Origin: Saururus chinensis
Lineage: Eukaryota; Streptophyta; Magnoliopsida; Piperales; Saururaceae
Length of the DNA: 64,000 bases
Direction: 5' to 3'
Assembly (NCBI GenBank): GCA_035235625.1
Contig: CP141144.1
Span: forward strand, 19,279,014-19,343,013
The translations under genes and the position numbers were made by a program. The notes below the pieces were generated by a model. The model saw only the letters and a program-made list of their open reading frames with translations. It was not told where the DNA came from and did no database searches. This document shows positions 11,213 through 61,311 of the stretch, one piece after another (positions within the stretch are counted from its first letter, which is position 1; every line of letters begins with the position of its first letter).

Positions 11213-11749
11213 GGCATGTTGTGAGAAAAGTGTCTCAGGCCAAGGGGAGGTTATGTCAGTAACCTACTGGCACGAAAAGAGAAAAGTGTTCCGGGTCATG
11301 GTGAGTTTATGTCAATAGCCTATAGGCACGGAAAGAGGAAAGTATTCCAGAGTTAGAGAAGATTTTGCCCACCATCTCTGGACCTGAAAGAGAGGACACC
11401 TTAAGGAAATGAGAAACTCCGAACGTTGCCACTTCCGAAACTGCAAGGAAGTATGCTCTTTTGACCTTCTAATTTAATATGATTTATATACATGCATATC
11501 TTAATTAGTAATATACTAATTAAGATATATAATTTGCTATGATTTGATATATGTCGATATGTTCCAATTTGATCTACTTTGATATATTCTGTTGTGATCC
11601 GAATTACACTGAAATGCTCTATTGTGATCTGATATACTATGATCTGATCTGATATGATCGGTATGGTCGAATGAAATCTAATAGGATCTAATATGATCTA
11701 ACATGCTCTATAGTGTGTTCATCTCCACTCTATGATAGAGTGGGACGTG

Positions 11750-12939: not shown

Positions 12940-15292
12940 TGTGACACCCCGTATTTCGATTACGCTTAACCTAAGAGGGTTAGGGGCAATTATATAATTT
13001 TAGTTAAATTTTAAGGGGTTTTAAAGGAACAATTTCTAATATCTAGTTATAACTTGAAGTAACAAGCACAATAAATCAAAGAACACGTAAAATGGAAGTT
13101 GAGTATGAAAGTTACGACATCGGAAAGCATGCCACATGGGCAGGACATACTTAAAAAGTGCAAGATAACTTACCTATATGTTGTCTAGTTTCAAAGGGCT
13201 CATCGATATGAGTCCATTGGTACTAAGAACCTGCAATTCCGACTTCGGAGTAAGAAGATATAGTATTTAAAGTTTTAAAAATAAAAGAATAAAAATTATG
13301 AATTAATGCCACATGGCAGCACGCGGACACATCAGGAATCTAACACATGTCATATGCGTGTGTCAGAAAACTAACACATGTTTGACACTGGTGTCAAACG
13401 CCTGAGGTGTGTATGACGCATGCCAGACATGAGTCAGACGCACGTGGAATTCCATTTTCTTTATAAATTGCTCTTCTTCATTTCCATTCTAAAGCTTATT
13501 TTATTCATTTTAAGTGTGATTCGAGTCATTTAAAATGTGTTATTAGCTAATTCGATGGTGTTCTACATAATAGAAGTGTCAATTCCTTGAGTTGGCGACT
13601 TTATAAGGGAGAAATGCCTAGGTATAAGAGGAGGTTCTGCCAGTCACCCTCGAATACGAAGGAGGAGTTTATGGAGTCGTTCTAAGTTCGTTTTCTTCCA
13701 TTCAAAAAGCATTCTTAGCTAATTCGAGGGTGTTCTATGTAGTGGAAGTATCTATTCCTCACGTTAGTGACCCTATATCGGGGAAACACCCCGGGGCAAG
13801 GGGAGGTTCTGTTCGCCACCTACAGGCACGGGAAAGGTAAAGTGTCTCCGGGGCAAGGGGAGAGTCTATCCACCGCTTACGGGCACGTGAAGGGTAAAAT
13901 GTCTATGGACAAGGAGAGTGTTGGGAACGTCCTAGGGGCTGCTAGGGGGTGCCACTGGGGCCACATATTAGGGTAATTAGGGTATTTATGTAATAAGGGT
14001 ATTTATGTAATAAGGGTATTTAAGTAATTAGGTTAATTAGGATGTTCTTTAATTATGTTAACGGGCCTTAGGCATCTGTTAATGAGCCCATTAGTTTGCT
14101 TATTTAAGTGTAAGGGCTAGGACCTCATTTGATTATGGAATGAATTATCTTTTGTCTAACTGTCTCTTCTTCTCCCCTGCCTCTCCTCCCTGTCCGGCGG
14201 CCACGCCGCTACCTCTCCCCTTTCCCGGCTTCCCTGCGCCACTCCTGTCCCGTTATTGGCTAGCCAGGCCGTTGTGCCACTTTGGGCACAACAGAGAGGT
14301 TCTATCCTCCACCTATGGGTGCAGAAAGTGAGAAATGTCTCTAGGTAAGGAGAAATTTTGTTCGTTACCTACGAGCATGTTGTGAGAAAAGTGTCCCGGG
14401 CTAAGGGGAGGTTATGTCTGTAAGCTACAGGCATGAAAAGAGAAAAGTGTTCTAGGTCAAGGTGTGGTTCTATCCATAGCCTATGGGAATGAAAAAAGGA
14501 GAATATTTTGAAGTTAGAGGAGGTTCTGCCCGCCATCTACGGACCTGAAAGGGAGGACGCCCTAAGAAAATGAGCAACTCTGAACGTTACCACTTTCGGA
14601 ACTGCAAGGGAGTACCCTTTTTTGACCTTCTAATTTAATATTATTTATATACATGCATATCTTAATTAGTAATATACAAATTAAGATATATAATTTTCTA
14701 TGATCTGATATATGTCGATATGTTCCTATTCGATCTACTTTGATATATTCTATTGTAATCTAAATTACTCCAAAATGCTCTATTGTGATCTGATATACTC
14801 TGATATGTTTTGATATGATCGGTATGGTCGGATGAAATCTGATATGATCCAACATGCTTTGTAGTGTATTCTACTCCACTCTATGATAGTGTGGGACGTG
14901 TGATTTTGTTAGTATTCTGCTCACCTATGTGAGATGTGTATTTCGCTAATTTATTGGCTTCAATTTGACTCCAATGATGAATGTATTAGCCGTTAGGTAG
15001 AACTACGTTCAGATCCGATCATATTGGTATAATATTATTAATGTTATCTAATATGTACATAGGCAACCAACGGTAAGGCAACATTGGCCAGATCCAAATT
15101 AGTTATAAAATTAGGTTTGTTTTGACCTACGTGCAATGAAGCACTAATGCTTGTAGTGCATAGAAGAACGTTTCAACTTTTGTACACATAGTCTACAGCT
15201 CCTGGTCTGTATTGGTTTTAAATTTTTTTGTTAATTTAATACACTCCGATTCTGTTTTTCGAATAACCCCCAGTCCGGGTCGGGGTGTTACA
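12940..15292 (+). repeat. 3' LTR of the outer element
   Basis: It begins TGTGACACCCCG and ends GGGTGTTACA, next to the right copy of the ATTCA duplication. It aligns with the 5' pieces through shared blocks, for example the region around 13600-13900 with 9400-9700 and 14370-14900 with 11218-11749. Without the 375-bp solo LTR inside it, it is just under 2 kb. No coding sequence is seen. Confidence 0.8.
13919..14293 (+). repeat. Solo LTR C (375 bp) inside the 3' LTR of the outer element
   Basis: It begins TGTTGGGAACG, ends GGGCACAACA (TGTTG...CAACA termini) and is flanked by a perfect GAGAG duplication (13914-13918 and 14294-14298). The sequence is absent from the matching place in the 5' LTR. 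Size and termini suit a small Ty1/copia LTR or a TRIM. Contains a repeated AGGGTATTTATGTAAT block at 13979-14020. Confidence 0.8.
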
Positions 15293-16205: not shown

Positions 16206-16323
16206 AGACCTAATTTGAGACTAACATCTTATTTTGAAAAGAAGATACATTCGATGATCGCATTAGACCTAATTTGAGACTAACATCTTATTTTGAAAAG
16301 AAGATACATTCGATGATCGCATT
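16206..16323. repeat. Perfect 59-bp tandem duplication
   Basis: The 59 bases starting AGACCTAATTTGAGACTAAC at 16206 recur immediately at 16265 without a visible difference. The identity implies a recent local duplication. Confidence 0.9.
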
Positions 16324-16329
16324 AAATGA

Positions 16330-29130: not shown

Positions 29131-30758
29131 TTTATGGCCAAACTGTTGCACAACTCAAAATTCTAGCATTTATCCTCCCTTGCCTGACCAAGGGGATTTC
29201 TAACTTTGATGGTTTTGGAAAACAAAAAATGTTTGGATGGCTTGAATCTTCTCTTCTAAGCATTTGTTTATCAATTTATATTTTGTACCACAGGGGGGAC
29301 AGTTGAGTTGGCATGTACAAATAACAAATAAAAAAGCAGATGTTCCCTTGGATTTTAGTCATTTGGGTCTTCTATAGCTTGGAGAAGGAATAGTACATTT
29401 GTCCAAATAAATGTATGTATTCTTACCGCAGAAGCCAGAATATGAGAATCAACTATTGGCTCTAATCCAAAGTTGGCCTCGTGTTGAGCGTGACAACCTA
29501 TAAATGAAAAGGAAAATGATATTCATACTCTATTTTTTCTACATCATATGCTTTACGCCACCTTTGATTGGTTAAGGAAAGTGGATCTCACCCAACAACA
29601 TGAGATTAACTTTTCTCCATCCAATTATAAGTAGTATAAGGCCTATAGGTGTAGACAAAGTGGCGTAAGAATATCACTATCCCAATGAAAACACTTTAGG
29701 CTTACATATAGCCTTGGCAATCCAATCAAGGTAATTATTATATTAATCTCCTCCTTTGATTTGAGGAGAAATTTTATAATATTTTTAACTATCAATTTTA
29801 TTGAGTAACTTGGTAACAATCTTTTAAAAAGTAGTAAATTTATAAAAACTACCATTCACTTTTCTAAAGGACAAAATTACTTCTACGGTTCACTTTCCCC
29901 TATCAGGTTTAGTTTAATATTAAAAATATCTCACCTTTCTTCTCCAAAGTTTCAGCAACATGTGCGATGCTGCTTGTGACATCATAATTTTTCAAGTTTC
30001 AGCTGCATGGGAGATTGTAAATTTGATCCTTAAACCTTTTGAGGATAATAACTCCTCATATACAAAAATTAGGTAGAAAGAGCTTCGTAATGCTACTAAG
30101 AAAGCGCAAAACTAAGTTCATATGAGAAATATATTATTGTTTGAAGTTGAACACAATTTACGAATTTTGTTTACCTATATTGATGTAAATTGATCGATTT
30201 TTACGAACCTAAAATAAATTATAAAACTTAGTTTAGAGAAGCCTTATTAGGCTGCTAATCAAGGTTGATTAGGACCAAATTTCATAGGTGATTAAGAAGC
30301 TCAATCATTATAAATACCAATCTAGGGTGCTCTTTGGGGGATCTTTAGAGAGTATACATGAAAGAAGGGGAGGCTGGAAAAGATGGTGTTTTCGGAAAAT
30401 GGAAAGGAGAATGGGGTGGGATTAGCAAGGAGGAGGAGTGTAATTATGAAGAATACGTCATTGGAGAGGTAAGAAGTCGAGCCAAAAGTTACTTTTATTA
30501 CATGACTAGGATGACAACTTCCTAGTTACTAAATAGGCTAATGTGTAAAAATGCATGATTTAGATTTAGTTAAAAAATATAGAGGATTTGGGGAGTTGAT
30601 TGGTAAACACTGCCAGTGGCACCAATAGTGGAACCCACAACAAAGCCTATGGTGCTGGTGAATCAAAGAGTAGACGAGGAAAAGTACTGTCAAGTGGAGT
30701 CCAGTGTCAACCGAATCAATTGAAGTTATCCCACCCATCTACTTTCGATTGTTGGGCT
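29131..30758. other. AT-rich intergenic DNA, no gene recognised
   Basis: No recognisable gene. A GA-rich patch lies at 30355-30475. The hAT element begins just to the right. Confidence 0.4.
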
Positions 30759-30766
30759 ACTCAAAC

Positions 30767-33676
30767 TAGGGGTGGCCATAGTGCAGGCCTGGCCAGGGCC
30801 AATCCCTAAGTCTAAGAGTCGTCGGGCAAATATCATTTGGGGGCTTAGCCCGGCATATTTTTTTTAAATAAATTTGAAAGGAGGGGGAATTGCAAAATTG
30901 TCATCCCCTTCAAAGAGATAATTTTAACAATCAAATAATGGTCATTTTCAAGGGTAGGAGAGGTAACCATTATATTTGAAAATCTATAAATAGAGGGAAG
31001 TGTAACCTTCTCTTTACCCTTTCCTCTACTATCTAAGACTCTCTTTCTCCTCTCCTCTTATACTCTCAAGTCTCAAGAACTTAATTACTTTAATTTTTAT
31101 TTTTAATTAAAATTTAAAATTAAGTTATCATACTCTCAAGCTTCAAGATTCAAGAATCAAGTTCTCAATTCTCAAGCTTTCTCCTCCTCCATCAGGTGGG
31201 AAACTGGGAACTCAAGTCTCAACTCTTAAACATCAAGGTAAGTAAATTTGATTTAATAATTTAATTTTTAGTTTAATTTGTCTCCTTTTTTTTCTTGGTA
31301 CATTTTTTCCTGTTTTAAAGAATATGGCATTCCACTCAACCAACAATACCTCCTCCTCCTTGGTCGCCCCCCTAAGTTCAAACACCAATTTTCCTATAGG
31401 AGGAATTCTCGGCATAGAAGAATTAGACTACGAAAGAATTCCACCAATGCCTCTGACTGTGGGAGAGAAAAAAAACGGCACCCCTCCATGGTGTAGAACC
31501 ATATGAAAAAAATTAAGGTGGACAACCATAACAATCTTGGCAAGTTCTTCCAAAAAACCAAATGTAACTATTGTAAGAGTTTTCTAATTGTGGGAACCGG
31601 GGGAGGAGGCCAAACATCTTCTCCCACATGCTAGATCATTCTTGGCTAAGCATGGACCGAAGGACCCCAAACAAGCACAATTAAGTGCCATGAGCACCTC
31701 TTCTACCTTTATTAGTACTTTTACTTTTAATCAAGATACAAATTTGAAGGAGTTTGTGAAGTGCGTTGTGCGCACCGAGCACTTTTTCTCCTTCACTGAT
31801 GATTCGAAGTTTGAGACATACGACCTTCAACAAAATTTTGCGCAACACTTCGAAGAGAAATATTTTCAAGCTACACAAGGAGTACAAGGTAGAGCTTAAA
31901 AAAATCCTATAAACAATTCTAAGTAAGATTTCTTTAACTCCTGATATTTGGACTAGTATCCATTGGCCATACATGTGGTACCACTCATTTTATGGATGAA
32001 ACATGGAAATTAAATAATAGAATAATAAATTTAACATTCTAGAATATCCTCATTGCACTTCAATTATTAAAAAAATTTAGATGTATGTTTTAAATGAATA
32101 CTCAATAAAAGATAAAATTATGTCTATTACTTTAGATAATGTCTCTGATAATAATTTAGCGGTAGAACTTTTAGACTCATTGTGATCACATTGGTGCAAT
32201 AGAATCAAGTATATTTCATATTAGATGTTCACGTCACATGATAAATTTATTTGTTCAAGATGGTTTAAATGTAGTTAAACCTCATATTCAATTAAACAAA
32301 AAATTGTTTGTTACATATCACCTCTTCACCCTCTAGATTACAAGAATTTAAAGACTTGTGTAGATTGCATGGTAAGCAATATATAAAATTTCAAGTAATT
32401 GTTCATCATAGGTGGAATAGCACATATTCAATATTAAACACTTGTGAAGGATTTAGAAAGTTTAATTATATGTTGGGATACAGAAAAGTTACCTCATCTT
32501 GGACTTAATGAAGGTCATTTTGTCATATCTATTTGTTTGATGCATTTTCTATATTTATTTTATAATATTACTAAAGATTTATCTAGAGTTTACCATCCTA
32601 CTTCTTGTTCAAATCTAAACCACATGTATGATATAACTTATGAATTTGCACTAGATAGAGATAATGAAATATTTGCATATCTTGTACAGGAATGAAAACA
32701 AAATTTAATAAATATTACTCTCCTATCCACTTAATTTATTGTTTAGGGGTTGAAATGGATACTAGGGTAAGATTAAAAGGTATATAAATTTTATTAGATG
32801 GTATACAGGAAAAAATGAGTCCCTATGTCAATGAAAATGATACTCCATATAAAACTATATAAACTACTTTGTATTCTTTATATAATATATATGCAATAAC
32901 TCATGGATCAAGATGAATTCAATCAACTTCTTCTTCTTCTACTTCTATGCATCTTCTAAGCAAAACTAAGTCTTGGATGTTACTTCAAAATAAAAAATAA
33001 AAATTTAGTTCTAATACTAATAAATTAGCTAACTATTTACAAACTGATTTGAGCCTCATTTTATCCGAAGAATAACTTAGTAATATAAATGTTTTAATTT
33101 AGTGGAAGACATATGGAAAGAACTATCCCGTGTTGTCTGCTTGACTCGTAATTTACTAACCCACCCAGCCCCTCCCCTCGATGTCTACAATAACATCGAA
33201 ATATGCTTTTAGTGCAGGAGGTAGGGCCTTGAACGATAAGCGAAGTCGACTAACGCTTGATGTGGTGGAGCCATTCATTTGCCTAAAGGATTAGTTGGGC
33301 GTAGAAGAAAGGGCACAAGCTCCAAATTTTGAAGAGGAAATTAGAGAAAATTTAGAAAACTTCACAATCAATAATTAGCTAATAATGTAATTTTTATATA
33401 TTTTTATATTTAAGGTTTTAGATTATAATTGTAAATGAGAGATAGATAAGTGGGTGCCAACCTCGTTGGGATGTACATTCTATAGTGATTCAAATCTAAT
33501 ATTCACTTTGTAAGTAATAATTCCATTGTATAAGTATATAAATTTTTTATTAAATATTTTTTAGAATTTTTTTTATTTATTTTAAAGGTTTCTTCTAAAA
33601 AAAATATAAGGCGAGAGGCACGGCCCCCCTTCTCTCCCACCTTAGCCCTCTGCACCCTATGAGGGGGCCACCTCTA
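30767..33676 (+). mobile_element. hAT DNA transposon, 2.9 kb, inactive
   Basis: Terminal inverted repeats start TAGGGGTGGCC on the left and, inverted, TAGAGGTGGCC on the right. Flanks ACTCAAAC (30759-30766) and ACTCAAAT (33677-33684) form an 8-bp target duplication with one mismatch, the hAT hallmark. A TATA-like CTATAAATAGAGG lies at about 30987. A possible 5' leader intron runs from a GTAAGT at about 31231 to an acceptor ending TTTTAAAG at about 31320. The transposase gene inside is decayed. Confidence 0.9.
31324..33380 (+). pseudogene. hAT-family transposase with BED zinc finger, decayed
   Basis: It would cut and rejoin hAT ends in the nucleus if intact. An N-terminal start at 31324 (MAFHSTNNTSSS) precedes a BED-type zinc finger: CNYCKSF at about 31563, then HLLPHARSF at about 31613 in another frame. 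Mid-region motifs follow: TPDIWTS (about 31939), LDNVSDNNLAVELLDS (about 32138) and RWNSTYSILNTCEGFRK (about 32410). The C-terminal dimerisation region includes YAFSAGGRALNDKRSRLT (about 33195-33250), close to the SAFSxGGRxL block of plant hAT transposases. At least ten stops and several frame changes interrupt it, so it is not functional. Order and spacing match ZBED/Ac-type plant transposases. Confidence 0.88.
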
Positions 33677-33877
33677 ACTCAAATAGAGTCACAACCAGTG
33701 TTTTAAAAATCGGACCTGACTGGCCATTTTTGTAATGCACCCGATCCGAGCCGGGCCCACAAAATCACTAATAGAAAATTTCTTTCCTTAAGCCAGGAAT
33801 CATCGTCAGTGTGCAAGAGGTACAACATTCGTCTACGCACTACAGACCTTCAAGGCTTCCCATACATAGACTTAGGT

Positions 33878-35635
33878 TGTAACAGACACAAACACACAAC
33901 GAAGCTTCATAGTTCGTCGCGTGAAAAATAGAATAAAACATATATAATAATTAATTTGGATTGGGTCAACGTTACCTTGCCGTTGGTTGCCTACGTACAT
34001 ATTAGATATTATTCCAACACAATCAGATCCTAACGTAGTTCTACCTAATGGCTAATACATACAACAAGTGTCACAAAATCATATATGTTAATATACATAT
34101 ATACTAATATTTAGTTGGAGTTATACAAAAATTTGTCATATATCGGAGTCAAGCAAAAATTAATAAGTCAACAAAATCGTACATCTCGCTCTACCACAGA
34201 GCGGTATCAAAACCGCATACACACGTCTCGCTCTATCACTGAGCCGAGACTGAACACACATACACACTACATGTCTTGCTCTACCCTAGAGCAAGATGGA
34301 ACATAAAAATGTCACATCCAAGCATAGCAGGTTAGAGCACAAAGGATCATAGCATAACACACATCCTAATTTAGCACATGTAGCTCTATAACTTAAACGG
34401 GATGTTAGAAATACTTACTCCCCTCATGTTTCGTAAGGTAACGGTATTCGGAGTTGCTCATTCCTTCTTGGCATCCTCCCCTTAGGATCCAAAGGCAGTA
34501 GGCGAAGCTTCCTGTAGCCTCCATACGCTCCTCGTCTTGTACTGAAATACTGCATACAAACGTTCTCCTTGCGAGACTCTTCTCATTTTTTGTGCCAGTG
34601 GGCGGCAGACAGAACCTCCCCTGCTCAAGGATGTTCCTCACACATTGTGGCTCTTCGGTGGAAGACAGAGCCTCCCCTACTCTAGATTGCATCTCTAGTT
34701 GTGGCCCGGCAACTTTGGACAGAACCTCGTCTTGCTCCTGGCCCCATTTTCTTACTTCGTTGCTCGAGGATGACGGGCAAGGCCTTTCCTTGTCTCGAGG
34801 CATTTCCTCCTCATACAAATTGCCAACTCATAAAACGGACCCCTCCATCACGAAGAGCATACTCAATTTAGTCCAGAACGCCTCTTGGGTGGACTAAATT
34901 TGAGCTACGATGCTCAGAAACAGAGAAAAAGAAGATTGTTGGTGCTCGAGGACAACAGGCAGGACCTCTCCTTCTCTTGGGGCGTTTCCTCAACATACGG
35001 TCTCCAACTCAAAGAAAGGACCACTTCATTGCATAGAGCATGCTTGATTTACTTAAGAACGCCTCTTGAATGGCCATAATCAGACTTAGAAATGTCCGAA
35101 ATGGAGGAGAAGAATTGACTCAAAAACAAAATGAAATGGGGTATTTATAGACCCGAAACTGCGGCGCCGCGCCGCCATTTCTGGAGGGGCTGCAGTTTCG
35201 GTGGTGGCACCAGCTGAAACCATGTGGCTCGAGGCCATGTGTTACACTGGTCGCACCCGCGCCGTAGAAACGCGGTGCCCGCAGTAACGCGGGCTCGCAC
35301 CGTTTTTTCCTTTTCCTTTTTTTTTCTTCTTCTTTCTTCAAACACATGTATCTCCCTACCCCGGATTTGGATTCGCGCGTTCTTGGTACCGTTGGACTCA
35401 TATCAACGAGCCCTTTGATATTAACCCACTTAAAGCAATAAATTGTGCTCTTTCAAGGCCATAACTTCCGGTATTGACCTCCGTTTCGCCTGTTCTTTCA
35501 TTTGTTACACTCGTTTCTTCGATCTCTACTCAAATACAGAGGTTTCAACCTTTGAAACTATTTATAATTTATTAGAAAATGTACTAATTACCTCTAACCC
35601 CCTTGGTTACGTAATCGAAAAAGCGAGGTATTACA
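33878..35635 (-). repeat. Solo LTR of the outer-element family (1.76 kb)
   Basis: On the minus strand it starts TGTAATACCTCGC, followed by TCGATTACG as in the outer element's LTR, and ends TGTTACA. Internal blocks match too: 34010-34060 corresponds, inverted, to 14980-15080, and 34430-34490 to 14540-14620. There is no coding part. Flanks TAGGT and GTTTT do not match, so no target duplication is claimed. Diverged from the copy at 12940-15292 by well over 10% by eye. Confidence 0.72.
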
Positions 35636-35809
35636 GTTTTGACTAAGTTCAACCGGACCCATTATAAAAAACAGGCCGGTTCTATTTAATTTTTGGCTCG
35701 ATTTAACCTGGATGGGTCAGCAGAAGTTGGACGGTTCAACTGGTTACCCGGTGTTCCGGTCTGGTCCGGGTTCTAAAAAAAACCAAAGTGGCAATTTGGA
35801 GGCAGGGTG

Positions 35810-35980
35810 GTTGAGGATGGAGAAAGGGGGAAGAGGAGTGGGAAGGGTCAGGGTCGGGCTGCCAAGGAGGAGAGAGAGGGGAAGTCTGGTCCGGGGGGGG
35901 GGGGGAGAATTTGTCTGGTTTGTGAATTTGTGGTCAAGCCGTCGGGAGGAGAGGGAGAGGAAGGTGGAAGAGGGGAGATG
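35810..35980. repeat. G-rich low-complexity tract
   Basis: GGAGAGAGAGG and a run of twelve G near 35890 make frames open on both strands. Not read as coding. Confidence 0.7.
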
Positions 35981-36048
35981 AAGCAGAGCGACGATTTGGG
36001 GGCGGGGCAACTATGAGTGACTATGATTTGTGGTCGAGCTTAGCCGCA

Positions 36049-36605
36049 GGGGTGGAGAGGGAGCCATGGAGAGGAGCTCGGCCACTGGGGTGGAGAGGGA
36101 GCCATGGCAAGGAGATCAACCACCGGGGTGGAGAGAGAGCCATGGAGAGGAGATCAGCTGTCGGGGTGGAGAGGGAGATGTGGAGAGTTGCTTATTCCAC
36201 ATCCAATCTTTGTGCACTAGATTCACGAAGAACCTATCTTTACGAACTCTATCTATCTTCAAGGTTAGGATAGTGCCTTCTGAAAGTCCTTAAGGATCTA
36301 TATCATGAAGGTGCTTTGTGTTAATCAAACCAGTCAGACCTAAATCTAGAACACGTATTATACGCTCAGGTTGCACCCTCTGAACAGTGGCATGCACAAG
36401 TCTTCCTTTAGCTAGTGTCTCATCACTTTCCCTAGAAATCATTAAAAATACTTCATCTTGACTTGGTTCAGAATAAGGGGTACGGCCATCCTTAAACCCA
36501 TGCAACAGCCCCGGCCATCGGAGTGGAGAGGGAGCTTTAGAGAGGAGCTTGGCCGCCAGGGTGGAGTCGTGGCTACCGGTTGGGGTGGAGCCATAGAGAA
36601 GTGGT
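36049..36605. repeat. 38-bp GA-rich minisatellite, split by the SPT6 fragment
   Basis: Units beginning GGGGTGGAGAGGGAGCCATG start at 36049, 36087, 36125 and 36163, an exact 38-bp spacing. The array stops near 36186 and related units (GGAGTGGAGAGGGAGC, CAGGGTGGAG) resume at about 36520. The 320 bp in between has different composition and is the host-gene fragment. Confidence 0.85.
36186..36509 (-). pseudogene. SPT6: Captured fragment of the SPT6 transcription elongation factor gene
   Basis: The minus strand encodes about 107 codons in one frame. The first part, LLHGFKDGRTPYSEPSQDE, then an S1/OB-fold-like segment (ETLAKGRLVHATVQRVQ ... VLDLGLTGLI), and after one in-frame TAA at 36288-36290 the segment GLSEGTILTLKIDRVRKDRF. 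It matches, from memory, the region of plant SPT6 proteins (ELMHGFQDWR.PYKEPSQDEEF, then S1) just before the SH2 domains. SPT6 is a histone chaperone travelling with RNA polymerase II. Here only this piece is present, with no promoter, other domains or flanking exons, and it interrupts a minisatellite inside a transposon-like unit. A non-functional capture is the natural reading. A transcript from either strand cannot be excluded. Confidence 0.8.
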
Positions 36606-37002
36606 AACCGTCAAGTCTGACTGCCAGTGAGAGGGAGCAAGACGGTAGGAGAGGAAGAAAGAGGAAAGAGGCGGCAATTGGTGGGACTAGGGATAGTGAA
36701 GGTCCTTAAGGAGAAGTTATATAATAACCCTCCGTCCATGTCGATTTTTAAAACATTGTCATAACATAAGGAGAGTAGGCAACATAATTGGTCTACTCGC
36801 AGGACCCTATGGGTAGCCTCACCAACAACACCGACCAAACAATTGTGATCTCTATCATTGGGTAATTAGTCTCTAACCTGATACAATCATAGCAAGGCAG
36901 CACCACCAATAGTTGTAGGGGATATAAAAAATAAGTAAAGCCTTTCAACCGTGGTCGGCACTCTAGTGAAGCACTGCCGGTCGAGTCATTTGAGTCACCA
37001 CC

Positions 37003-37476
37003 TGTTGTTACATGACTTGTTTGAAAAGTCCAGCATGGGTTGGACTCCAGAATTTGGTTACGAATGTGATAAAGTTGAATCGGGAAACGGTTCTTAGGCT
37101 TATCTAAATATTTCCCTGTTGGCTACACACGGGATGGACTTGAGGAGTTTTTTTTTTCAGTTTTTCTCTTTGACGTGAGGCATAAAGTTGGTTCTCTTTC
37201 TTCTCTTGGTTTTGGGCAGCAAAGAGAGTCTTCTTCTCTTGATTTTATTTCTTGTGAGAGAGGGGTGAGAACTTGGGTGTACAAGGGGTTTCTCTCAAGG
37301 GCTGTTTGAGAGGCTTGTAATTCATCCGAATATTTATCAAGTGATAGTGTAAGGCTCTCTCCGGTCGTGGACATAGGCACCTTGTCGAACCACGTAAATT
37401 TCTGTGTCTTGCTCTATTTATTTACTTGCATTATTTTTCTACTTTATTTTGGATTGTGCCATTAAGAAATTCTACG
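37003..37476 (+). repeat. 5' LTR of the copia element
   Basis: Begins TGTTGTTACATGAC directly after CCACC and ends before the primer binding site. Nearly identical to 41599-42074. Confidence 0.92.
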
Positions 37477-37479
37477 AAG

Positions 37480-37491
37480 TGGTATCGGAGC
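37480..37491 (+). promoter_or_regulatory. Primer binding site (initiator tRNA-Met type)
   Basis: TGGTATCGGAGC, three bases after the 5' LTR, is one base from the usual plant TGGTATCAGAGC that pairs with the 3' end of initiator methionine tRNA. Confidence 0.85.
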
Positions 37492-37516
37492 TTTGGTTTA
37501 AAGAAATTTTTTCATA

Positions 37517-40500
37517 ATGGCATCTAAGGGGTTTAGCAAATTTAAAGTGGAAAATTTTGATGGAAAAAATAACTTCAGTTTGTGGCAGAGAAGGGTTAAT
37601 GATCTACTGGTACAATAGGGCTTATTAAAAGCGTTGTATGGAAAATCAAAGAAACCAGAAAACATTAGTGAAGATGACTGGGAGGAGTTCGAGATGAAGG
37701 CGGTAAGCACTATTCGTCTTTGTCTTGCTGATGAGGTGTTATACAATGTTATTGATGAGGAGTCAGCTCCGAAACTCTGGACAAAATTGGAGAATTTGTA
37801 CATGACAAAATCCCTTACAAACAAGTTATTCCTCAAGCAACAATTGTATGCTCTAAGGATGGCGGAAGGGGCAAATTTGTTAAAATACTTCAACACGTTC
37901 AACAAATTGACCTCTCAGTTGCTCAGTATTGGTGTTAAAGTTGAAGAAGAAGACAAGGCACTACTACTTTTGGCATCTCTTCCACCTTCATATGAACATA
38001 TGGTAACAACGTTGTCATATGGGAAAGAGACAATAGAGTTGGAAGAGGTCATGGCTGCTCTTTTATCTAATGAGATGAGGAAGAGGCCTAGTCTTGAAGA
38101 TTCGCAGGCTGAAGGTTTTGTGGTTCAAGGAAACAATCGGGGAAGAGGAAGATTCAGGAACAATGAGTCTAATGATAATAGGTATCGCTCCAAGTCGAAG
38201 GGAAAGAAAAAGATTGAATGCTATTATTGCAAGAAAGAAGGGCACATGAAAAGGGATTGTCGAAAGCGCAAGGAGGACCAAGAGAAGAAGAAGGAAAATG
38301 TGGCTTCTTCAGGTCAGGCTAGCATGGTGGAGGATCAACCTGATGATTCTGAGGCTGATGTGTTATCTGTCACTTCAGGTATGAATTATTTTAATGATTC
38401 ATGGATTTTAGATTCAAGTTGTTCATTGCACATGTTTCCTAATCATGACTGGTTTGATACTTATGAGTCATATAATGGTGGATCTGTTCTAATGGGGAAT
38501 AATGCTACATGTAAGACCATTGGAGTAAGAACTATGAAAATTAAGATGTTTGATGGCATAATTCGAATACTTACTAATGTTAGACATGTTCCTGATTTGA
38601 AAAAGAATCTAATCTCTTTGGGAGCATTAGATGCACTTACTTGTAAGTTTAATGCAACAGGTGGAGTGTTAAAAGTTACAAAAGGGGTAATGGTGGTGAT
38701 AAAGGGTCAAAAGGTTGGAAACCTATACAAATTAATAGGGAGTACAGTTGCAGGTGGAGCTGCTGTGATTATTCCTATGGAAGTTAGTGATGATGACACA
38801 TACTTGTGGCACATGAGGTTAGGGCATATGAGTGAAAGGGGTATGCAAGAACTTCATAAAAGAAAATTGTTGAAAGGTGTCAAAAGCTGCAAATTAGGTT
38901 TCTGTAAATATTGTTTGTATGGAAAACAGTACAGGGTAAGATTTCACACAGGGAAAGATACAAGCAAGGATGTGTTAGAGTATGTCCACACAAATATTTG
39001 GGGTCCAGCTTCAACTCCATCAAAAGGTAAAGCTGAATACTTTGTGACTTTTATTGATGACTACTCAAGAAAGGTGTGGGTATTTTTTATGAAACAGAAA
39101 TCAGAGGTGTTCATGAAGTTCAAGCAGTGGAAGGCCCATGTTGAAAAGCAGACAGGAAAACAGTTGAAATGTCTCAGGTCAGACAATGGGGATGAATACA
39201 AATCAAAAGAATTTGTTGATTACTGCAAGAATGAAGGCATTGCACGCCACTTCACTAATCCAGGAACCCCACAACAAAATGGAGTAGCAGAGAGGATGAA
39301 CAGGACACTCTTGGAAAAGGCAAGGAGCATGAGGCTGAATGCAAATCTTTCTAAGGAGTTTTGGACTGAAGCAGTTAACATGGCATGTCACATCATAAAT
39401 AGGTCATCATCTACAGTTATTGACTTGAAGGTGCCTGAGGAGGTATGGACTGGAAATCCTGTAGATTACTCCACTCTTAAGATTTTTGGGTGTCCTGCAT
39501 ATGTCCATATTCAGAGCATGCAAAGAAGTAAGCTTGATTCTAAGTCTTAAAAATGCATTTTTCTTGGGTATGAGAAAGGAGTGAAGGGATATAAACTTTG
39601 GGATCAAGAGGCAAAGAAAGTAGTATTTAGCAGAGATGTGGTATTTGATGAGTCTCAAATGTTAAGCAAACAGGATGGTGACTTAGTGCAACAGAAAAGT
39701 CAGCAACAAATGGAAGTTTAGGTAAAATTAAATGATGAAGATGCCCAAGGGGATAGTAAAGACAATGAGCAATATTCTCATATGAGTGATGAACAGCATC
39801 AAGAGCCTTATAGCATTGCAAAAGGAAGAGCAAAGAGAGACACTAAAGCAACAATCAGGTATGGCTTTGAAGATATGGTTTCTTTTGCTTTATTCACTGG
39901 TAGTGGAGATCCATCTTGTTTTCAGGATGCTATAAAGTCTAAAGACAATAACAAGTAGATGACAGCCATGATGGAGGAGATGGAATCTCTACATAGGAAC
40001 AAAACTTGGGAGTTGATTGAACTACCTAAAGGAAAAAGGGCTATTGGATGCAAATGGGTGCTCAGAAAAAAGGAGGCTTCATCAGACAAGGAACCTGAAC
40101 GGTTTAAGCCTAGGTTAGTGGTCAAATGATATGCACAGGTAGAAGGTGTGGATTTTAATGAATTTTTTTCTCCAGTGGTAAAACACACATTTATTCGGGT
40201 TTTGCTGGCTATGGTTGCTTGTTATGATCTAGAACTTGAACAACTTGATATGAATACAACATTTCTTCATGGGGAATTAGAAGAGCAAATTTACATGCAG
40301 CAACCAGAGGGATTTGAAGAACCAGGGAAGGAAGACTTGGTATGCATGTTGAAGAAGTCTTTATATGGTTTAAAGCAATCACCAAGACAATGGAATAAGA
40401 GGTTTGACTCTTTTATGTTGAACAGTGAATACACTCGTTGTGAGTATGATCATTGTGTTTAATTTCATGTTCTTCATGATGGTTATTATATCTATTTGCT

Positions 40501-41476
40501 CTTATATGTTGATGATATGTTGATTGCTACTAAGAATATGTCAGATATTGACTTGTTAAAATCTAAGTTGGGAAATGAGTTTGATATGAAGGATCTTGGA
40601 GCTGCAAAAAGGATCCTTAGTATGGAAATTCAGAGAGACAGAAAACTTGGGAAGCTATGGCTCTCTCAAGGGAAGTATATAGAGAAGGTGTTGGACAGGT
40701 TTAGCATGAACAATGCAAAACCAATTAGTACACCTCTTGCTGCACATTTCAAGTTGAGTGCAGAGTTATGTCCCACCACAGAGGATGATATTTCAGGTAT
40801 GAAGCTAGTACCTTATTCAAGTGCAGTTGGTTGTCTAATGTATGCTATGGTGTGCACTAGGCCAGATATTGCCCAGGCAATGAGCGTTGTTAGTAGATAC
40901 ATGGCTAATCTAGGGAGGAAGCATTGGGATGCTGTAAAGTGGATTCTGAGATATCTAAATGGGACAAAGAATGTTGGCATTTTGTTTGAGAATGATGGAA
41001 CATTGGCACATATAGCTGGATATGTGGATGCAGCCTTTGCAGGTGATCTGGATAAGCATAAGTCTACCACAGGATATGTGTTCACTTTTGCAGGTGGTAT
41101 AATCAGTTGGAGGTCTATTCTCCAAGCAGTGATTGCTTTATCAACAATAGAGGCTGAATACATGGCAGTTGTAGAAGCAGCTAAAGAGGCTATATGGTTG
41201 AAGGGCTTGGTCAATGAACTTGGTTTGAAGCAAGAGAATATCATAGTACTTTGTGATAGTCAAAGTGTTATACATTTAGCAAAGAATCAAGTTTATCATG
41301 CCAGGACAAAGCACATTGCAGTAAAATATCACAAGATAAGAGAATATGTGTCAGATGGGGAGATCAATCTTCAGAAGGTGGATACAAAAGACAATGCTAC
41401 AGATATGTTAACAAAGACGGTGACCACAGAAAAGTTCAAACATTGCTTGAGCTTGCTTAATCTCACAGGATGTTGA
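37517..41476 (+). pseudogene. Copia gag-pol polyprotein gene, broken
   Basis: Parts in order: gag from ATG 37517 with a zinc knuckle CYYCKKEGHMKRDC near 38218; protease region around 38400 (SWILDSS); GAG-pre-integrase HMRLGHMSERGM near 38810; integrase core about 38960-39450 with WVFFMKQKSEVF and GTPQQNGVAERMNRTLLEKA; reverse transcriptase about 39960-40740 with LLYVDDMLIA at 40498; RNase H about 41000-41400 with STIEAEYMAV. The longest uninterrupted stretches are 37634-39550 and 40496-41476. It is a fossil. Confidence 0.92.
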
Positions 41477-41585
41477 GGATCACATTGCACCCAATTGGGG
41501 TGTGGAAGGATCTGTGTTCAAGGTGGAGGACGCAGGGACACAGATATGTGTGGATGATTCTCCTAGGTGACTTGTCAAACTCAAG

Positions 41586-41598
41586 TCAAGGTGGAGAT
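41586..41598 (+). promoter_or_regulatory. Polypurine tract
   Basis: CAAGGTGGAGAT lies directly before the 3' LTR, the usual plus-strand priming site of copia elements. Confidence 0.75.
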
Positions 41599-42074
41599 TG
41601 TTGTTACGTGACTTGTTTGAAAAGTCCAGCATGGGTTGGACTCCGGAATTTGTTTACGAATGTGATAAAGTTGAATCGGGAAACCGGTTCTTAGGCTTAT
41701 CTAAATATTTCCCTATTGGCTACACACGGGATGGACTTGAGGAGTTTTTTTTTTCTAGTTTTTCTCTTTGACATGAGGCAAAAAGTTGGTTCTCTTTCTT
41801 CTCTTGGTTTTGGGCAGCAAAGAGAGTCTTCTTCTCTTGATTTTATTTCTTGTGAGAGAGGGGTGAGAACTTGGGTGTATATGGGGTTTCTCTCAAGGGC
41901 TGTTTGAGAGGCTTGTAATTCATCTTAATATTTCTCAAGTGATATTGGAAGGCTCTCTCCGGGCGTGGACGTAGGCACCTTGCTGAACCACGTAAATTTT
42001 TGTGTCTAGCTCTATTTATTTACTTGCATTATTTTTCTACTTTATTTTGGATTGTGCCATGAAGAAATTCTACA
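41599..42074 (+). repeat. 3' LTR of the copia element
   Basis: Ends TTCTACA directly before the second CCACC. See the 5' LTR. Confidence 0.92.
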
Positions 42075-42079
42075 CCACC

Positions 42080-43125
42080 ATATGGCAAGTCAATCCGGCT
42101 AGCCTCTTACCCAAGGACGACAATTGTTGATGCACCCGACAGAGATTGTAGATGGACGATCTAGTAGGAAGAAGAATTTGAGTCAGGCAAGCAGGTAAAT
42201 GGACGGGTGGCTAGACCGTCTTATAGTGTGCATTTATCTATCCGTCTATTTGTTAAGGTCCAGGCCGAGTTAAGGAACAAAATCCAGTCCGGGTTGAGGC
42301 AAAAGGGAATTGAACCCAGTGATTAAACCAAGTCTAGTTCAGGAGGTCGAGGTGTTAAAAAAATCTACAAAATTTACAAATTTACAGTGTAAAGAGTGTC
42401 TTGATCAAGTTTCAATCCAAGGATAAATCCTTGTGATAGTATGAAAAAATTATTTTCACCTTAGAGATGAATTATGGTTTAATATCCAACTTGGCTCTAG
42501 TCTATGTGGCCTAAGAGTGGAGTTCAAAATTCCAAAAAAATCTTAGTGAGAGGTGAGGGTCAACCCTAGGCATAAACCAAGTCACATGTATGACATAAAT
42601 CCAAGTAAACAGTAGGTAACCATTTTGCGCTAAGGTTAGAAAGTGAACAGTTGAGTTAATGAAGCATTCTACGAGGGGCACTTAATGACCTAAACATTAT
42701 TAAGTGTCATTAACATTAATATAGATTATTGGGCTCAATTCTAGTCTGAACAGAGTTTATTATGACCACTATTGGAATAAAAGAAATACGCTTGTTAGTA
42801 GACTGGTTTGCATTCTGATAATGGACTCATGAGCCAATTAGAGAGTTGAACCTTCTTAAGACAATGACATGAAGTCTAAGAAGAGAAAGTGAGGTGACCG
42901 GATGACACTAAGAAGAGGGTTGTACTGAAGAGAGGAATTACAAAGATGTTTGTGGAATAGCCTAATTGAAACTAAGCTTGAGAAGAGATAGGGTATCACA
43001 ATAAACATAGTTAATATTGTAGAGGAATTTATATATTGGGAAATCTTATGACCAAATTACTCACTTACATATGTGGATAATCCGCCTTATACCTTAGATT
43101 TATTATGGCTGTCTGAGATGACAAA
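42080..43125. other. Intergenic DNA, no gene recognised
   Basis: No coding sequence, repeat array or termini were noticed. It was the target region of the copia insertion. Confidence 0.45.
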
Positions 43126-43131
43126 GTAAAT

Positions 43132-44610
43132 GTATGGTTTAACACCCCGAAAATTAGGAAGAATGTTTTGTAGTTAATTAATGTTGAGAGAGAAATTAAA
43201 CCCATTAAGTTAAACTGGACCCCAATAAAAACCTTGATTTGATCCCTTGAGTATTAGGGGTAGGGGTGGGAACTTTCCAAATGTAAGTAGAGAGTGTAGG
43301 ATTTCACGATCAACCTAGTCAACTTGACTACTCGAAACCCTAAAACCCTAACCAAAGTTCCGGGAAGGGAGAAACACACTATTTAGACCTAAGTGTCTAA
43401 TTTTTATAAGCTATCAGACCTTTCTATAAGACTTGACTTGAGCAACCCATGTATGAGAGTGTGCCCGTGAGGGGATATGATTCATCTAGACTTGCTCGTG
43501 AAGCCCTAACCAGAAGGGCTTGCCCTAACCAGAAGGGCTTGCCCTAACCCTTGCATTGGTGTCAAGCTGCCCAAGAGTCCATAATCTTTCAAATGGGGAA
43601 TGATTGGTGCAATCTCCCTATAAGGAACTCCCCTCTCCTCTCTCTCTCTCTCTCTCCCCCCCCCACCCCCACCCTTTCTCTCTCTTCTCTCTCCATTGGT
43701 TCGGCCAAGCCTCTTCCAGCTCTCTTTCCTTTTTTATTGCCCCCCCCCCCTCTCCTTTAGATTTCTTTGGAATTAGAGGCCTTCAAGACCACCCTTGGAA
43801 CTTAGAGAAAAAGGAGGTCAACTTACTTAGCGAAGCTAGGATCAAAAATTTTTGGGAGGAGTTTTCTTCATCAAAAAAGGTAGGAACTACGTACACCTCT
43901 TTAGTTCATGATGGATCTAGGTTTTGGATATGTTTTGTATGTGTCTTTCTTAATTCATGTGTGCGTAAATGAGAATGCATGTTTAGGCATTTATTCCATG
44001 GTTAAAGCTAGTATTGTTTATAAAATATCATGTGCTTATAACTCTATGCATGTGTTTAAATTCAAACATGATCATTATGATAGCTAGTATTGTGTGTTTC
44101 ATGGCTGGAATGAGTAACAAGATTTAATGGTCCTATTTTTTTTGCAATTTTTTGTGACCTTTTTCTATTTTTTTGCTTATTTTTCAACAAGAAAATTGAG
44201 ACTTTGGCATTTTTTTTGTGTATATTATCAAAATATTTTTATCTATAGAGTTGGGTGTAGGACCTTGTCATGGATAGAAGGCTTTGGTGTGCCACAAAAG
44301 GTGTTACCGTGAGAAGAAAAGAAAATTGAAGAGGAAAGAAAATGAGAGAGATGACAAAAGAAAAAGAAAAAAATGCATTAGACAGGGAGCGGGAGTGCCC
44401 AACCTATTTTTTGGTGGAACCCCCCACCCCTCATATGTCCTCCTCCTACTGCCAGTGGGCATCTTGGACGCAATTGTCGGCTGAGTCTTGGATTGGTGAT
44501 GCAAGTGGTTGCAGCCTTGGATGTGCACTGCCCCCTCCTTTTTTAGTTTTACCAATAAAAGCAGTCCTCCTCCTTGTTTGTTTTCATGTTAGTGCCGCTA
44601 CCACTGGCCG
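43132..44610 (+). repeat. LTR-like fragment, plus strand
   Basis: Starts near TGTATGGTTTAACACCCCG, followed by AAAATTAGG, a style common at the start of plant Ty3/gypsy LTRs. It contains a 20-bp repeat (CCCTAACCAGAAGGGCTTG twice, 43505-43545) and CT/C runs (43630-43755). No coding region and no fixed right end. Assignment is tentative. Confidence 0.35.
43630..43755. repeat. CT- and C-rich low complexity
   Basis: CTCTCTCTCTC runs followed by two poly-C runs of about ten bases. Peptides read through it are not credible. Confidence 0.9.
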
Positions 44611-45650
44611 TGTCACGCCCCTGCCATATCCCTCTTGACCCAAACCCAGCCAAAGTGGGATAACAATGGTGAGACAAGATTAGTGCTAACCCAACCTGGG
44701 CTAGATCAAAGTACAATGCATTCCATTTGTGCAAAAGCAATTACTGGAGTTGAAGGAAATTAATTTATGTCATAAAAATACTCTCTCCCACAACATGTCA
44801 AGTGTCATAGTTATGTGACAATGTTACATCAAAATCAATCAAGTCTATCTCAAAACATGTAGACAATCTCTCATTCGATATGCATCTAACAACCTTTATT
44901 CTCGCAAAATAGATCATCCTGAGCACATGCATGGCACAACCATATATGGGATCCCCAATGGATACCCTAAAATATAACAATGCAAATGGGGTGAGCTTAG
45001 CTCAGTAAGGGTTTGAAAATATAAAGTTCACATTAACACCAAAATATAATCATTAAGGAGCATAACATAAGTCTTATGTGAAACCAGTGTTAATAACATA
45101 AGACCACGTCAAATTCCTCACACATACAACCTGTGCAAATATCTCATTCATGCATCACATGTCCATAATCAAAACCTATGCATAATGTCTCAATCATGCT
45201 TTATAATCCACACACAAAATTTGTGTATTTAAGTGACATGTCCATATGCATCTTGCACAATCAAGTGTCATGATTTATATACAACTTGTGTAAACGACTA
45301 TCATATTCTTTAAAATCCTCGATGGAGAAATCTTGGTAACAGAAGGTATCAAATCTATACTTACCCAATATTCCTAAAAAGGAAAGACTAAAAGTAGTTG
45401 GCAAATCTAGTAAACTGGAGTGCCCCTAGTTAGCTGGTGCACACAAACAAACAAGCTTGGAGCTCACTCTAGAAGTCTTAATAGTTTTTTCATCATAGCA
45501 TTTCACTCTTCTCACCTAGGGAGGAGCAATCCCTTTCATTACAAAAACTCTACGCTCAAGGACAAAAACCTCCATTTCTAATGAAAAACCCATTCATTCA
45601 AATCCCAATGCAGCTAATCCGAAAAACTACAGAACACTATGGATAATCAT
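44611..45650 (-). repeat. LTR-like fragment, minus strand
   Basis: On the minus strand it ends GGGGCGTGACA (plus strand TGTCACGCCCC at 44611) and has CCTTACTGAGCTAAGCTCAC (plus 44988-45008), a box often found in plant Tekay/Del-type LTRs. No coding part. The other terminus was not found. Confidence 0.35.
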
Positions 45651-55299: not shown

Positions 55300-56040
55300 A
55301 TATTCTCCACTCTCTCTCCTCACTCTCTCTCATCTCTCTCTCTCTTTCTCCTCTTTCATCCCTCTCTCCTTTCTCTCTTCTCTCTCCTCTCTCCTCTCTC
55401 TCTCCACACTTTTCACTCTCTCTCTTCATTCTCTCTCTACTCTTTCTTTATTTTTAAAAATTTTTACAAATAATTTATAACGAAAATTTTATTTCTTTCT
55501 CTCCTCTCCTCTCCTCTCTCTCTCTCTTCTCTATCCCCTCTCTCTCGCTCGTCTCCCTCTCTCCTCTTTCTTTACTCTCTAGCTCCTCTTTCTTCTCTCT
55601 CTAGCTCCTCATCTCTCTCTTTAATAAAATATATTATATTTGATAAGTTTATTTTTAATTTTTTAAATATTTATTATATATATAAATAGTAAATATTAAA
55701 TAAAATATATTATATTTAAACTCTCTCCTATCTCTCTCTACACTCTTCACTCTCTCTCTTCATTCTCTCTCTACCCTCTATTTTTTAAAATTTTTACAAA
55801 TAATTTATAACTAAAATTTTCTTTCTTTCTCTCTCTCTCTCTCTCCTCTCTCTCTCATCTCCCTCTCTCCTCTTTCTTCTCTCTCTAGCTCCTCATCTCT
55901 CTCTCTTTAATAAAATATATTATATTTGATAAGTTTATTTTTAATTTTTTAATATTTATTTATTATATATACAAATAGTAAATATTAAATAAAATATATT
56001 ATATTTAAGAAGTTAATTTTTAAAATTTTAAATATTTATT
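55300..56040. repeat. CT-rich microsatellite with a duplicated AT-rich module
   Basis: TCTCTC runs alternate with an AT-rich block. A unit of roughly 300 bp that includes TTTTTACAAATAATTTATAA and TTAATAAAATATATTATATT occurs twice (about 55430-55720 and 55770-56040), so a compound tandem duplication took place. Confidence 0.75.
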
Positions 56041-56074
56041 TATTATAAATTTATTTATTAAATAAAATTAATTA

Positions 56075-56695
56075 ATCAAGCTATTAGCGACGATAATAAA
56101 AGTGTCACTAATAGTTGTATTAGTCGCAACACGTTAACAAATCGTCACTAATAAGTTGTGTATTTTTTAAAAAAAAATTATTTTATTAGTGACGCTTAAT
56201 AAAAAACGTCGCTAATATGATAAGTGTCGCTAATAGTTGTGTTATTAGTTATGCTTTATAAAAGCATCACTAAAAGTTATTCATTTTAAATTAAAAAGAA
56301 AATAATTATAACTATTAGCAACACTTGTTTTTAAGCATCGCTAATAGCACTACTAGTAGTAACGTTTTATTAAAAGTGTCCCTATAGTTAAACATAGCAG
56401 TGACACTTGAAAAAAGTGTAGCTAATAGTTATAATTATTTTTTTAAATTTCAAATGAATAACTTTTAGTGATGCTTTTATAAAGCATTGCTAATAACACA
56501 ACTATTAGCGACGCTAATAGATGTCATATTAGCAACGTTTTTTATTAAATGTTGCTAATAGATGTACTATTAGCGATATTTGATAAAAAACATCACTAAT
56601 AGTCAATTTTTTGTAATATTTTTTTAAGTGTCATAAGTAGTATTTTTTAGCGACGCTTGATTATGTGTCACTAATAGTATATTTTGTTGTAGTAT
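56075..56695. mobile_element. CACTA-like terminal region with inverted subterminal repeats
   Basis: Many copies, in both orientations, of a motif like ATTAGYGACGCTTNNTAA. A large inverted repeat pairs about 56218-56320 with 56428-56520. The right edge, read inverted, is TACTACAACAAAATATACTA, one base from the CACTACAA(C/G)AAAA terminus common to plant CACTA elements. The opposite terminus was not found. No transposase is present, so it is a non-autonomous or truncated element. Confidence 0.6.
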
Positions 56696-56699
56696 GGTC

Positions 56700-58740
56700 A
56701 CGTGAAGGACCAACTCCATGAAAGGCACCCTCCAAAAAAGCAAGGAGACTCTCACCCACCTCCAGCCAGTCTATTGGGCATGCACCACAACCACTAGGGC
56801 GGATGTTAGGCAATAATTTTCACACAAAATGAAATGCACAACTTAAGCCACACTAAACTTTTTAACTAATTATCTTGTTTATATGTTATGCAACATTGGA
56901 CTCCAAGCTTATTCCACTACGTTACATGCATAAACATGGTTTTTTAATTATGTGTATAATTGCCATTTACTCAAAAGAATAATACAAAATAATGTTCATA
57001 AGAGACATCTAGGAAATAGCTTAAAATTTGTTAGCCCCTCGGGCCCTATTTTTTAAACATGGGTGTTGGGCAACCTTTCAGCTTTGGCGGACAAACAAAT
57101 AAGGCAGGCACATTCCATGGAAAGTGTGCACGTCAGGAACATCGTTGGTGCGGTGGCCAAACAAGTTTGTGGAAGTCCTATTCCTAGAGGACTTGGTGGC
57201 GAGCTGGGTGCCACTAGCATAGGTTGGAATCCTATGCATGCTGGATGGATGATAGGATCACCTACTTCAAGTAAAACTCGAATATGGATGGCCAAATTCA
57301 TGGTGGTACATGCGGGCAGCCACACCAAAATTTACAAATAGTGGTGCTCATGCAAGATGTTTGGTTGTGGGTGTGCACATAATGAAGACCTTAGTTGGTG
57401 AGATCCTAGAACAACTAGAAATTTGAGCAAAAGCCCATTACAATTGGGAATCCCAGAAGTGAGTGGTTGCATGCAAATGATTGCTCAAGAGGGCTAAATC
57501 CTACTGCCACTTGGACTCCATGTGACATGTGGATGCGACTTTGAAGAAGTAAGAGGCAAGCGAGTTGAGGACTTTGAGTTGGAATAGGAACTTGATGACT
57601 ACTAGAAGGAGGTGGGATTCTAGAAGAAAGGTGCAACCTAAATCCTAGTATGGATGGGACTCTAGATAGAGGTCCTCGGTGGGATGTGAGTATATTTTCT
57701 AGTTGTAATAGGCTTGGGATGCTTGTATTTAGAAGTTTGCAAAAGGCTGCATGAGAGGGCATTCAGCCAGAGGGTTGAGATTCAGTGTTGTATAATCAGT
57801 AAGAGAGGGTTGAGAGAGTTGTGAGGCAAGTTGGGGCAGGGTCGATATGCTATAAGGTAGTTGTATGAGAGTGTAGGGTTGTGTGAGGATATATGTGTCA
57901 TAAATATTGTATTGGCTTTAATTTATTGAACATAACTATGTCCATTTTATATGTGTACTTAAGTCTTACAGAGTTTGAGTTGATTAGTGATGCATTAAAT
58001 TAGATTTAGAATTAAAAGACTTGAAATAACAAAGCAAATATGCTTTGAAGATTTCAAGGTGAAAGACTTAAAGAAGTGATTACATTTCACTAGTGCAGCT
58101 GGTATGGAATCAGCACGCACATCAACATGCTTAGAAAATTATATGATTTATTATATAAGTGTGGTAACAGACTGAGTAGAAAAAAGAGTAAAACATTGCA
58201 TAGGTATGCAAAATTTTCATTCGTGATCAATTGGGGTTGAAATGGGGTCGATCAAGAATGAATTACGTAGCCTATAACATGTTATTGTAGTAGTATTGTT
58301 TACTGATGTATTTTGCGTAAATTTTACAAAGCACCATGAAAACTACATAAAGGAGATGGAGGCTAGATGAGGATGATACTTGGAAAGATCTAGGAGGAGG
58401 CGAGGAGGCCGTGGCGGAGACGAGACAATCTATCAGATCATGATACACTACAATTCGAGGGTGGAATAGATACTGGAGAAGGGGTTTACTCTCCTAATAG
58501 AAATGTTTATTGTGTGTGAAGCAAAAATGTACATAACCCAATTTCACTTTGCAAGAGGGGAGGAGGTAGGGTAGCATCAAGAGAGATGTTTAGAGGACAG
58601 GAAAGGGGTTGTAGGATAAATTTGGGACTGGTTCATGAACAACAACAAACAAAGAAAAAGTAAAAACTGTCCAGTCTTAATAAATCAACGTTTGTGAACT
58701 TTGTGTGAGCCCCACTTTTTAACTCCAATCAAAACTCTTA
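56700..58740. other. Gene-free stretch
   Basis: Short frames on both strands at 57053-57341 and 57415-57762 resemble nothing I recognise. No repeats or termini were noticed. Confidence 0.4.
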
Positions 58741-58996
58741 ATTAGAGTATTTGTAAGTATTTTTGTAGTGACAATATCACTATCCTCGCCGCACCCGAAT
58801 TGGAAGTGTTGCCGCTAGAGAGGGAGAGCCTTGGGCCTATCACTATCCTTCGCCTCGCCCCCCGTCTTCTTCTCTCGCCCATCCCGTCTCTAATTTGCGG
58901 GCGCCGGCTCTTGGATCCTCTGGTATCCTCAATCCGAGATCTGAACCATGGCCATGTTTCAGGCATTGGAGGAAGAAAAAGGAACGAAGAGAAACC

Positions 58997-59152
58997 ATGG
59001 CTCCACCACCTTCTTCGTCCTCGTCGACTACCTCTTCCTCCTCATATTCATCTGCTTCCTCTGTTTCTTTATCTCCAAAGTATTTGGATTTTGATCCTGG
59101 TTCTATCTTCTGTCTTTGTTCTCTCTGCAAATTGGCCCGGTATAGCGACAAG
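58997..59152 (+). CDS. Possible first coding exon of an unidentified gene
   Basis: ATG at 58997 follows a GC-richer leader (58790-58996). It encodes 52 residues: a Pro/Ser-rich start, then [20 protein letters not shown] and LARYSDK. The frame ends exactly at AAG|GTAAAA, a plausible splice donor in phase 0. I do not recognise the family, and no second exon could be found to the right, so it may be a first exon with a long intron, a broken gene or chance. The paired Cys (CLCSLC) are worth noting. Confidence 0.35.
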
Positions 59153-59399
59153 GTAAAATTGATCTTTTCACTCGTTTCTTCGTATTATTTACCGATTTGG
59201 ATTCACACTGCGACCGAAATCCCAAGGCAGTATGTATTCTGTCTCCGATTATCTCAATTAGCGTCGATTGGATTTGACCCAAGATCTGGATCTGCAATCT
59301 TGGAGCGCATAATGGGTTTTGGCTGGAACGCAGGAATCTTGTGTTTGTGGGGTTTTGTAATGGCGGCTGATTCGCCTGAGTGTCTTGTTTGATGCAATG

Positions 59400-61300: not shown

Positions 61301-61311
61301 CCACCTATTAA

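Follow-up and report, generated by a model that had tools for sequence, protein, structure and literature searches.

A fragment of an SPT6 gene within the GA-rich array of a putative non-autonomous hAT-like element of Saururus chinensis

The analyzed window (the whole stretch of DNA under study) comprises 64,000 nt of Saururus chinensis contig CP141144.1, positions 19,279,014-19,343,013 of the forward strand. Read directly from this DNA, the locus contains a pair of hAT-like ends bordered by a target-site duplication, a GA-rich array between these ends, a fragment related to SPT6 within the array, and a long terminal repeat (LTR) inside the element (Table 1). The first-pass annotation had described the fragment as cutting a 38-bp GA-rich array in two, and this is the arrangement that we observed, with four units to the left of the fragment and a further two, less well conserved, to its right.

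Table 1. Coordinates of the features of the hAT-like element (positions within the window)
Feature	Position	Strand	Remarks
Left target-site duplication GTCACAAC	33688..33695		7/8 identical to GTCATAAC; fits nTnnnnAn
Left hAT-like terminal inverted repeat CAGTGTTTTAAAAATCG	33696..33712	plus	16/17 bases complementary to 36742-36758
Putative nested solo LTR, 1905 bp	33731..35635	plus	TG...CA ends; flanks ATTTT / GTTTT (4/5)
Left part of 38-bp GA-rich array	36036..36187		four units
Captured SPT6 S1-region fragment (putative)	36186..36509	minus	107 codons, 1 stop; borders accurate to a few bases
Right part of 38-bp GA-rich array	36507..36582		two decayed units
Right hAT-like terminal inverted repeat CAATGTTTTAAAAATCG (minus-strand reading)	36742..36758	minus	
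Right target-site duplication GTCATAAC	36758..36765		its first G also ends the right repeat

The fragment had been annotated as approx. 107 codons of SPT6-like S1-region sequence on the minus strand, interrupted by only one in-frame stop, and both statements were borne out by our analysis. The single stop is codon 73 (window positions 36290-36292), and the other two minus-strand frames of the fragment contain 14 stops each. The openness of the SPT6-like frame is nevertheless weak evidence when taken alone, because 5.7% of 20,000 order-1 shuffles of the fragment were equally open (at most one stop in at least one of the six frames). It was therefore dropped as stand-alone evidence and, as judged from sequence comparison, it is homology, not openness, that decides the SPT6 identity of the fragment.

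The Pfam profile PF21710 (Spt6_S1) matched the fragment with an E-value of 1.9e-8 and a score of 34.9 bits, thus passing its curated cut-off of 27.5; the match covers only positions 1-48 of the 91 in the profile. Neither the general S1 model (E 0.0062) nor that of the RRP5 S1 domain (E 0.018) reached its cut-off; a match to an unrelated S1-domain family was an alternative that the first-pass annotation had itself raised. The sub-cut-off match to the general S1 model spans residues 32 to 97 of the fragment, i.e. it crosses the stop, which suggests that the reading frame has been kept; the part after the stop gave no Pfam match when searched alone. All seven PDB matches obtained up to an E-value of 10 are named SPT6. 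One of the seven, the best match (8a3y, E 2.4e-6), lies below E 0.001, and the remaining six range from 0.012 to 0.38; with the pre-stop part of the fragment alone, the best E-value was 9e-7. Since the fragment represents part of one domain only and contains a stop, it is unable to make SPT6. A search for its relatives in viral contigs yielded nine pattern matches, none of which was confirmed.

The presence of a single stop in the frame could also be a feature of a degenerate SPT6 gene that has additional exons at this site, a reading of the flanking sequence which had been envisaged at the first pass as well. Minus-strand stop-free pieces of at least 45 aa in three intervals were scanned with Pfam for SPT6 domains, and beyond these intervals the search covered 10 of the 44 longer ORFs. 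With the exception of the piece carrying the fragment, no further SPT6 domain was found in the pieces of 35634-37002 (9/9 scanned), 30000-33695 (12/12) or 42080-45000 (13/13). The sole SPT6 match among the minus-strand pieces (36293-36610, 27.8 bits) is the fragment itself, and SPT6 domains were lacking from all 33 of the others, a count that includes the post-stop part of the fragment. The presence of SPT6 exons nearby was rejected for the pieces searched, in which the weak sub-cut-off matches were to DUF7271, FeoA and C1_1. As other SPT6 domains were not found in the pieces searched, the sequence is best described as a fragment and not as a gene. The array, moreover, adjoins the fragment directly on both sides, and, on the basis of the pieces searched, we regard the presence of a degenerate SPT6 gene as extremely improbable.

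Compared with a consensus made in this study, the four units of the left array match at 34, 35, 34 and 30 of 38 bases, and the two right units, which start at 36507 and 36545, are poorer (29 and 25 of 38 bases). The left array stops at a unit end, and the clear match on the right starts at 36512, in the register of the unit that begins at 36507; by this register, the inserted stretch corresponds to approx. 36188-36506. The resumption of the array register therefore indicates that the fragment is an insertion of approx. 319 bp, at the expense of no more than a few bases of the array, or else of entire units. According to an arithmetic estimate, the register would be kept within approx. 5 bases by chance in about 6 cases in 38. 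Words of 4-6 bases common to both borders of the fragment, which would mark a repair step, were not found.

The hAT-like inverted ends that had been proposed around the fragment are complementary at 16 of 17 bases and are accompanied by an 8-bp duplication with 7/8 identical positions. The right copy of the duplication overlaps the last terminal base by one G, and therefore one G may have been lost. Both copies, GTCACAAC and GTCATAAC, fit nTnnnnAn, which is the target consensus reported for the insect hAT element Hermes (PMC2803484), and duplications of 8 nt are described for all hAT elements that one study identified in rice and maize (PMC8903248).

An end-pair scan, designed after the pair 33696/36758 had been seen, searched for 16-base inverted ends with at most one mismatch, placed 400-6000 bp apart and bordered by a duplication of at least 7/8, a one-base shift being allowed. 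The pair 33696/36758 was the only one in the 64 kb with such a duplication. Comparable pairs were absent from all simulated windows (0/20 of order 1 and 0/60 of order 3), a result which, for the 60 windows, bounds chance only to approx. 5%. When the duplication rule was removed, the scan returned 42 end pairs in the window (126 entries, three offsets each) and 4-30 pairs (12-90 entries) in 20 controls. On account of the 42 pairs, inverted ends alone were rejected as evidence of a transposon. A duplication rule of 6/8 was also rejected, as it was matched in 9 of 60 controls and additionally returned 56017-61720 in the window.

Six matches to the element ends with at most three mismatches were detected in the window, i.e. 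the two ends themselves and four sequences with three mismatches. Since 4.66 matches are expected by chance, no further copy of the ends is seen in the window, and no second copy of the hAT part was found within the 64 kb. We found no report of the terminal sequence CAGTGTTTTAAAA in the literature.

These data bear on an explanation that dispenses with transposition, in which break repair or retroposition would have brought the SPT6 piece into GA-rich plant DNA of an ordinary kind, and the ends would be coincidental. The frequency of end pairs without a duplication, the overlap of the right duplication with the repeat by one base and the lack of another copy in the window are all compatible with it, but ends combined with a 7/8 duplication did not occur in any simulated window, and the duplication fits the hAT target consensus. 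An origin of this kind thus appears improbable to us.

As regards the type of element, the ninth base outward differs between the two sides (A on the left, T on the right), so that a duplication of 8 bp (7/8) fits better than one of 9 bp (7/9). A MULE is for this reason less favored, though decay could hide a 9-bp duplication. A transposase domain was not detected by Pfam in any of the 16 stop-free pieces of at least 45 aa in 35634-37002. All seven plus-strand pieces of this interval were scanned without a match, and hence the element yielded no transposase domain in the pieces searched. The combined features support the classification of the enclosing structure as a putative non-autonomous hAT-like element of the Pack-TYPE, which carries a host gene fragment and whose scanned pieces contain no recognized transposase domain. 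A tRNA scan and a search of Rfam at gathering scores returned no matches.

The first-pass annotation had placed the SPT6-like segment and the array between the hAT-like ends. The ends are real, but the nested sequence at 33731-35635, which also lies between them, had gone unmentioned. It begins with TGTAATGCAC and ends with AGGTATTACA, and pieces of it align with a related minus-strand LTR at approx. 12940-15292; the aligned part extends rightward to 35635, and its left limit is 33947, or 33809 if a weak match is counted. Visual inspection served to compare the two LTR starts, TGTAATGCACCCGATCCGAGCC and TGTAACACCCCGACCCGGAC. We read the sequence at 33731-35635 as a solo LTR that probably entered the hAT element when the latter was already complete. 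With the LTR and its duplicated 5 bases removed, the hAT element proper measures approx. 1153 bp.

Several other repeats occur in the window. LTR-type sequences that are related and in part duplicated cluster in the region 1585-15292; among them, 3449-4850 and 9792-11215 form a pair of 1424 bp at 93.3%. Minus-strand frames of a retroviral-type protease (7035-7517) and a reverse transcriptase (6289-6792) are also present and, judging by their position, presumably belong to the same Ty3-type family as the LTR. A degenerate 9-bp tandem array, GTCTGATCT, extends over 11873-12171 (approx. 33 copies, showing a higher-order period of 63 bp), and at 16206-16324 a 59-bp sequence is perfectly duplicated in tandem (2.0 copies at 100%). 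On the right, 244 bp from the hAT end, lies a Copia element (37003-42074) with interrupted gag-pol frames, LTRs (37003-37475 and 41599-42073) that are 95.4% identical, and the target duplication CCACC. To the left of the hAT-like element, the plus strand of 30767-33000 may be the fossil of another hAT that was once autonomous, with broken frames which we take to resemble hAT transposase. This possible fossil starts with TAGGGGTGGCCATA, which differs from the ends of the element; of 13 plus-strand pieces of at least 45 aa in 30000-33695, the eight that were scanned gave no match above the Pfam cut-offs.

The first-pass annotation had interpreted the locus as the transduplication of a host gene piece by a hAT-like element, and our results agree with this: capture by such an element, of the non-autonomous kind, finds support in the SPT6 identity of the fragment, in the inverted ends with their duplication, and in the fact that no other SPT6 domain was found in the pieces searched. 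Ac/Ds elements gain filler DNA through abortive gap repair. We consider it likely that the locus represents a Pack-hAT-type non-autonomous element of approx. 1153 bp, in which the SPT6 piece was captured as filler in a break of the array, and which was moved in trans. We infer that a break would have arisen inside the GA-rich array of the element and would have been repaired with a stretch copied from SPT6, which would leave array on both sides of the SPT6 piece. Transposase, presumably supplied in trans by another element, would have moved the package to its present site, either before or after the capture, and the solo LTR would have inserted into the element later.

The array on both sides of the fragment is also compatible with a fusion, in which two adjacent related elements with GA arrays flanked the SPT6 piece and were mobilized together by their outer ends. 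For Pack-TYPE elements, fusion of neighboring elements has been proposed as the general mode of origin (PMC8903248). In the present case no internal terminal repeat is left, as only the two outer ends, of the six matches with at most three mismatches, lie inside the element. In addition, the register of the array is maintained from one side of the fragment to the other, a feature that fusion does not predict and that is only mild evidence against it. We therefore consider fusion unlikely, and prefer capture of the SPT6 piece as filler within the array.

From the single stop it had been concluded that the capture may be recent. The stop is present, but recency is not established by it. On the assumptions that the piece was intact at capture and has not been under selection, one stop and no indels in 321 bases correspond to a neutral decay of 4.2% per site, with a 95% range of 0.2-18%. 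In this estimate, the chance of a stop per substitution was computed from the codons of the fragment, and for the indel rate, five pairs of repeats in the window were taken together, with 11 gap openings and 274 mismatches in all. A recent capture is therefore possible, and is only weakly constrained by the range obtained. Most likely, the fragment is a passive piece that decays neutrally, and nothing points to a function. Antisense or small RNA against the parent SPT6 gene had been envisaged at the first pass. If the element were transcribed from its left side, the product would be antisense to the S1 exon of SPT6 and might reduce the expression of the parent gene, but we think such a role very doubtful; if it were true, a factor required for general transcription elongation would be regulated by a hAT element.

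In the literature collection searched, we found nothing on SPT6 in Pack-MULEs or on the capture of SPT6 by plant transposable elements, which means that the SPT6 cargo may be unreported there, though the kind of element is known. The in-register interruption of the minisatellite would provide a useful test of filler repair versus fusion, if fragment-free copies exist in the genome; as a single decaying copy, the element is otherwise ordinary.

MULEs mostly generate 9-bp duplications and often have long ends. Pack-MULEs resemble the element described here in carrying host gene fragments between terminal inverted repeats; the latter best fits an 8-bp duplication and has 17-bp ends. The statement made at the first pass that hAT elements also capture pieces of host genes is in agreement with two publications, which describe Pack-hAT elements in maize (PMC8903248) and genic sequences in the hAT elements Hatvine-6 of grapevine (PMC2528002). 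Pack-hAT is thus an already published kind of element, to which the S. chinensis locus adds one structurally clear case. It shares with Hatvine-6 the hAT superfamily and the presence of genic sequence in a variable interior; Hatvine-6 elements are said to share transposase coding sequence (PMC2528002), whereas none was found in the element analyzed here. As in the maize Pack-hATs (PMC8903248), the element is non-autonomous, with hAT ends, an 8-nt duplication and an internal fragment of a host gene; it differs from them in its occurrence as one copy in the window, in the minisatellite split by the fragment and in the nested LTR.
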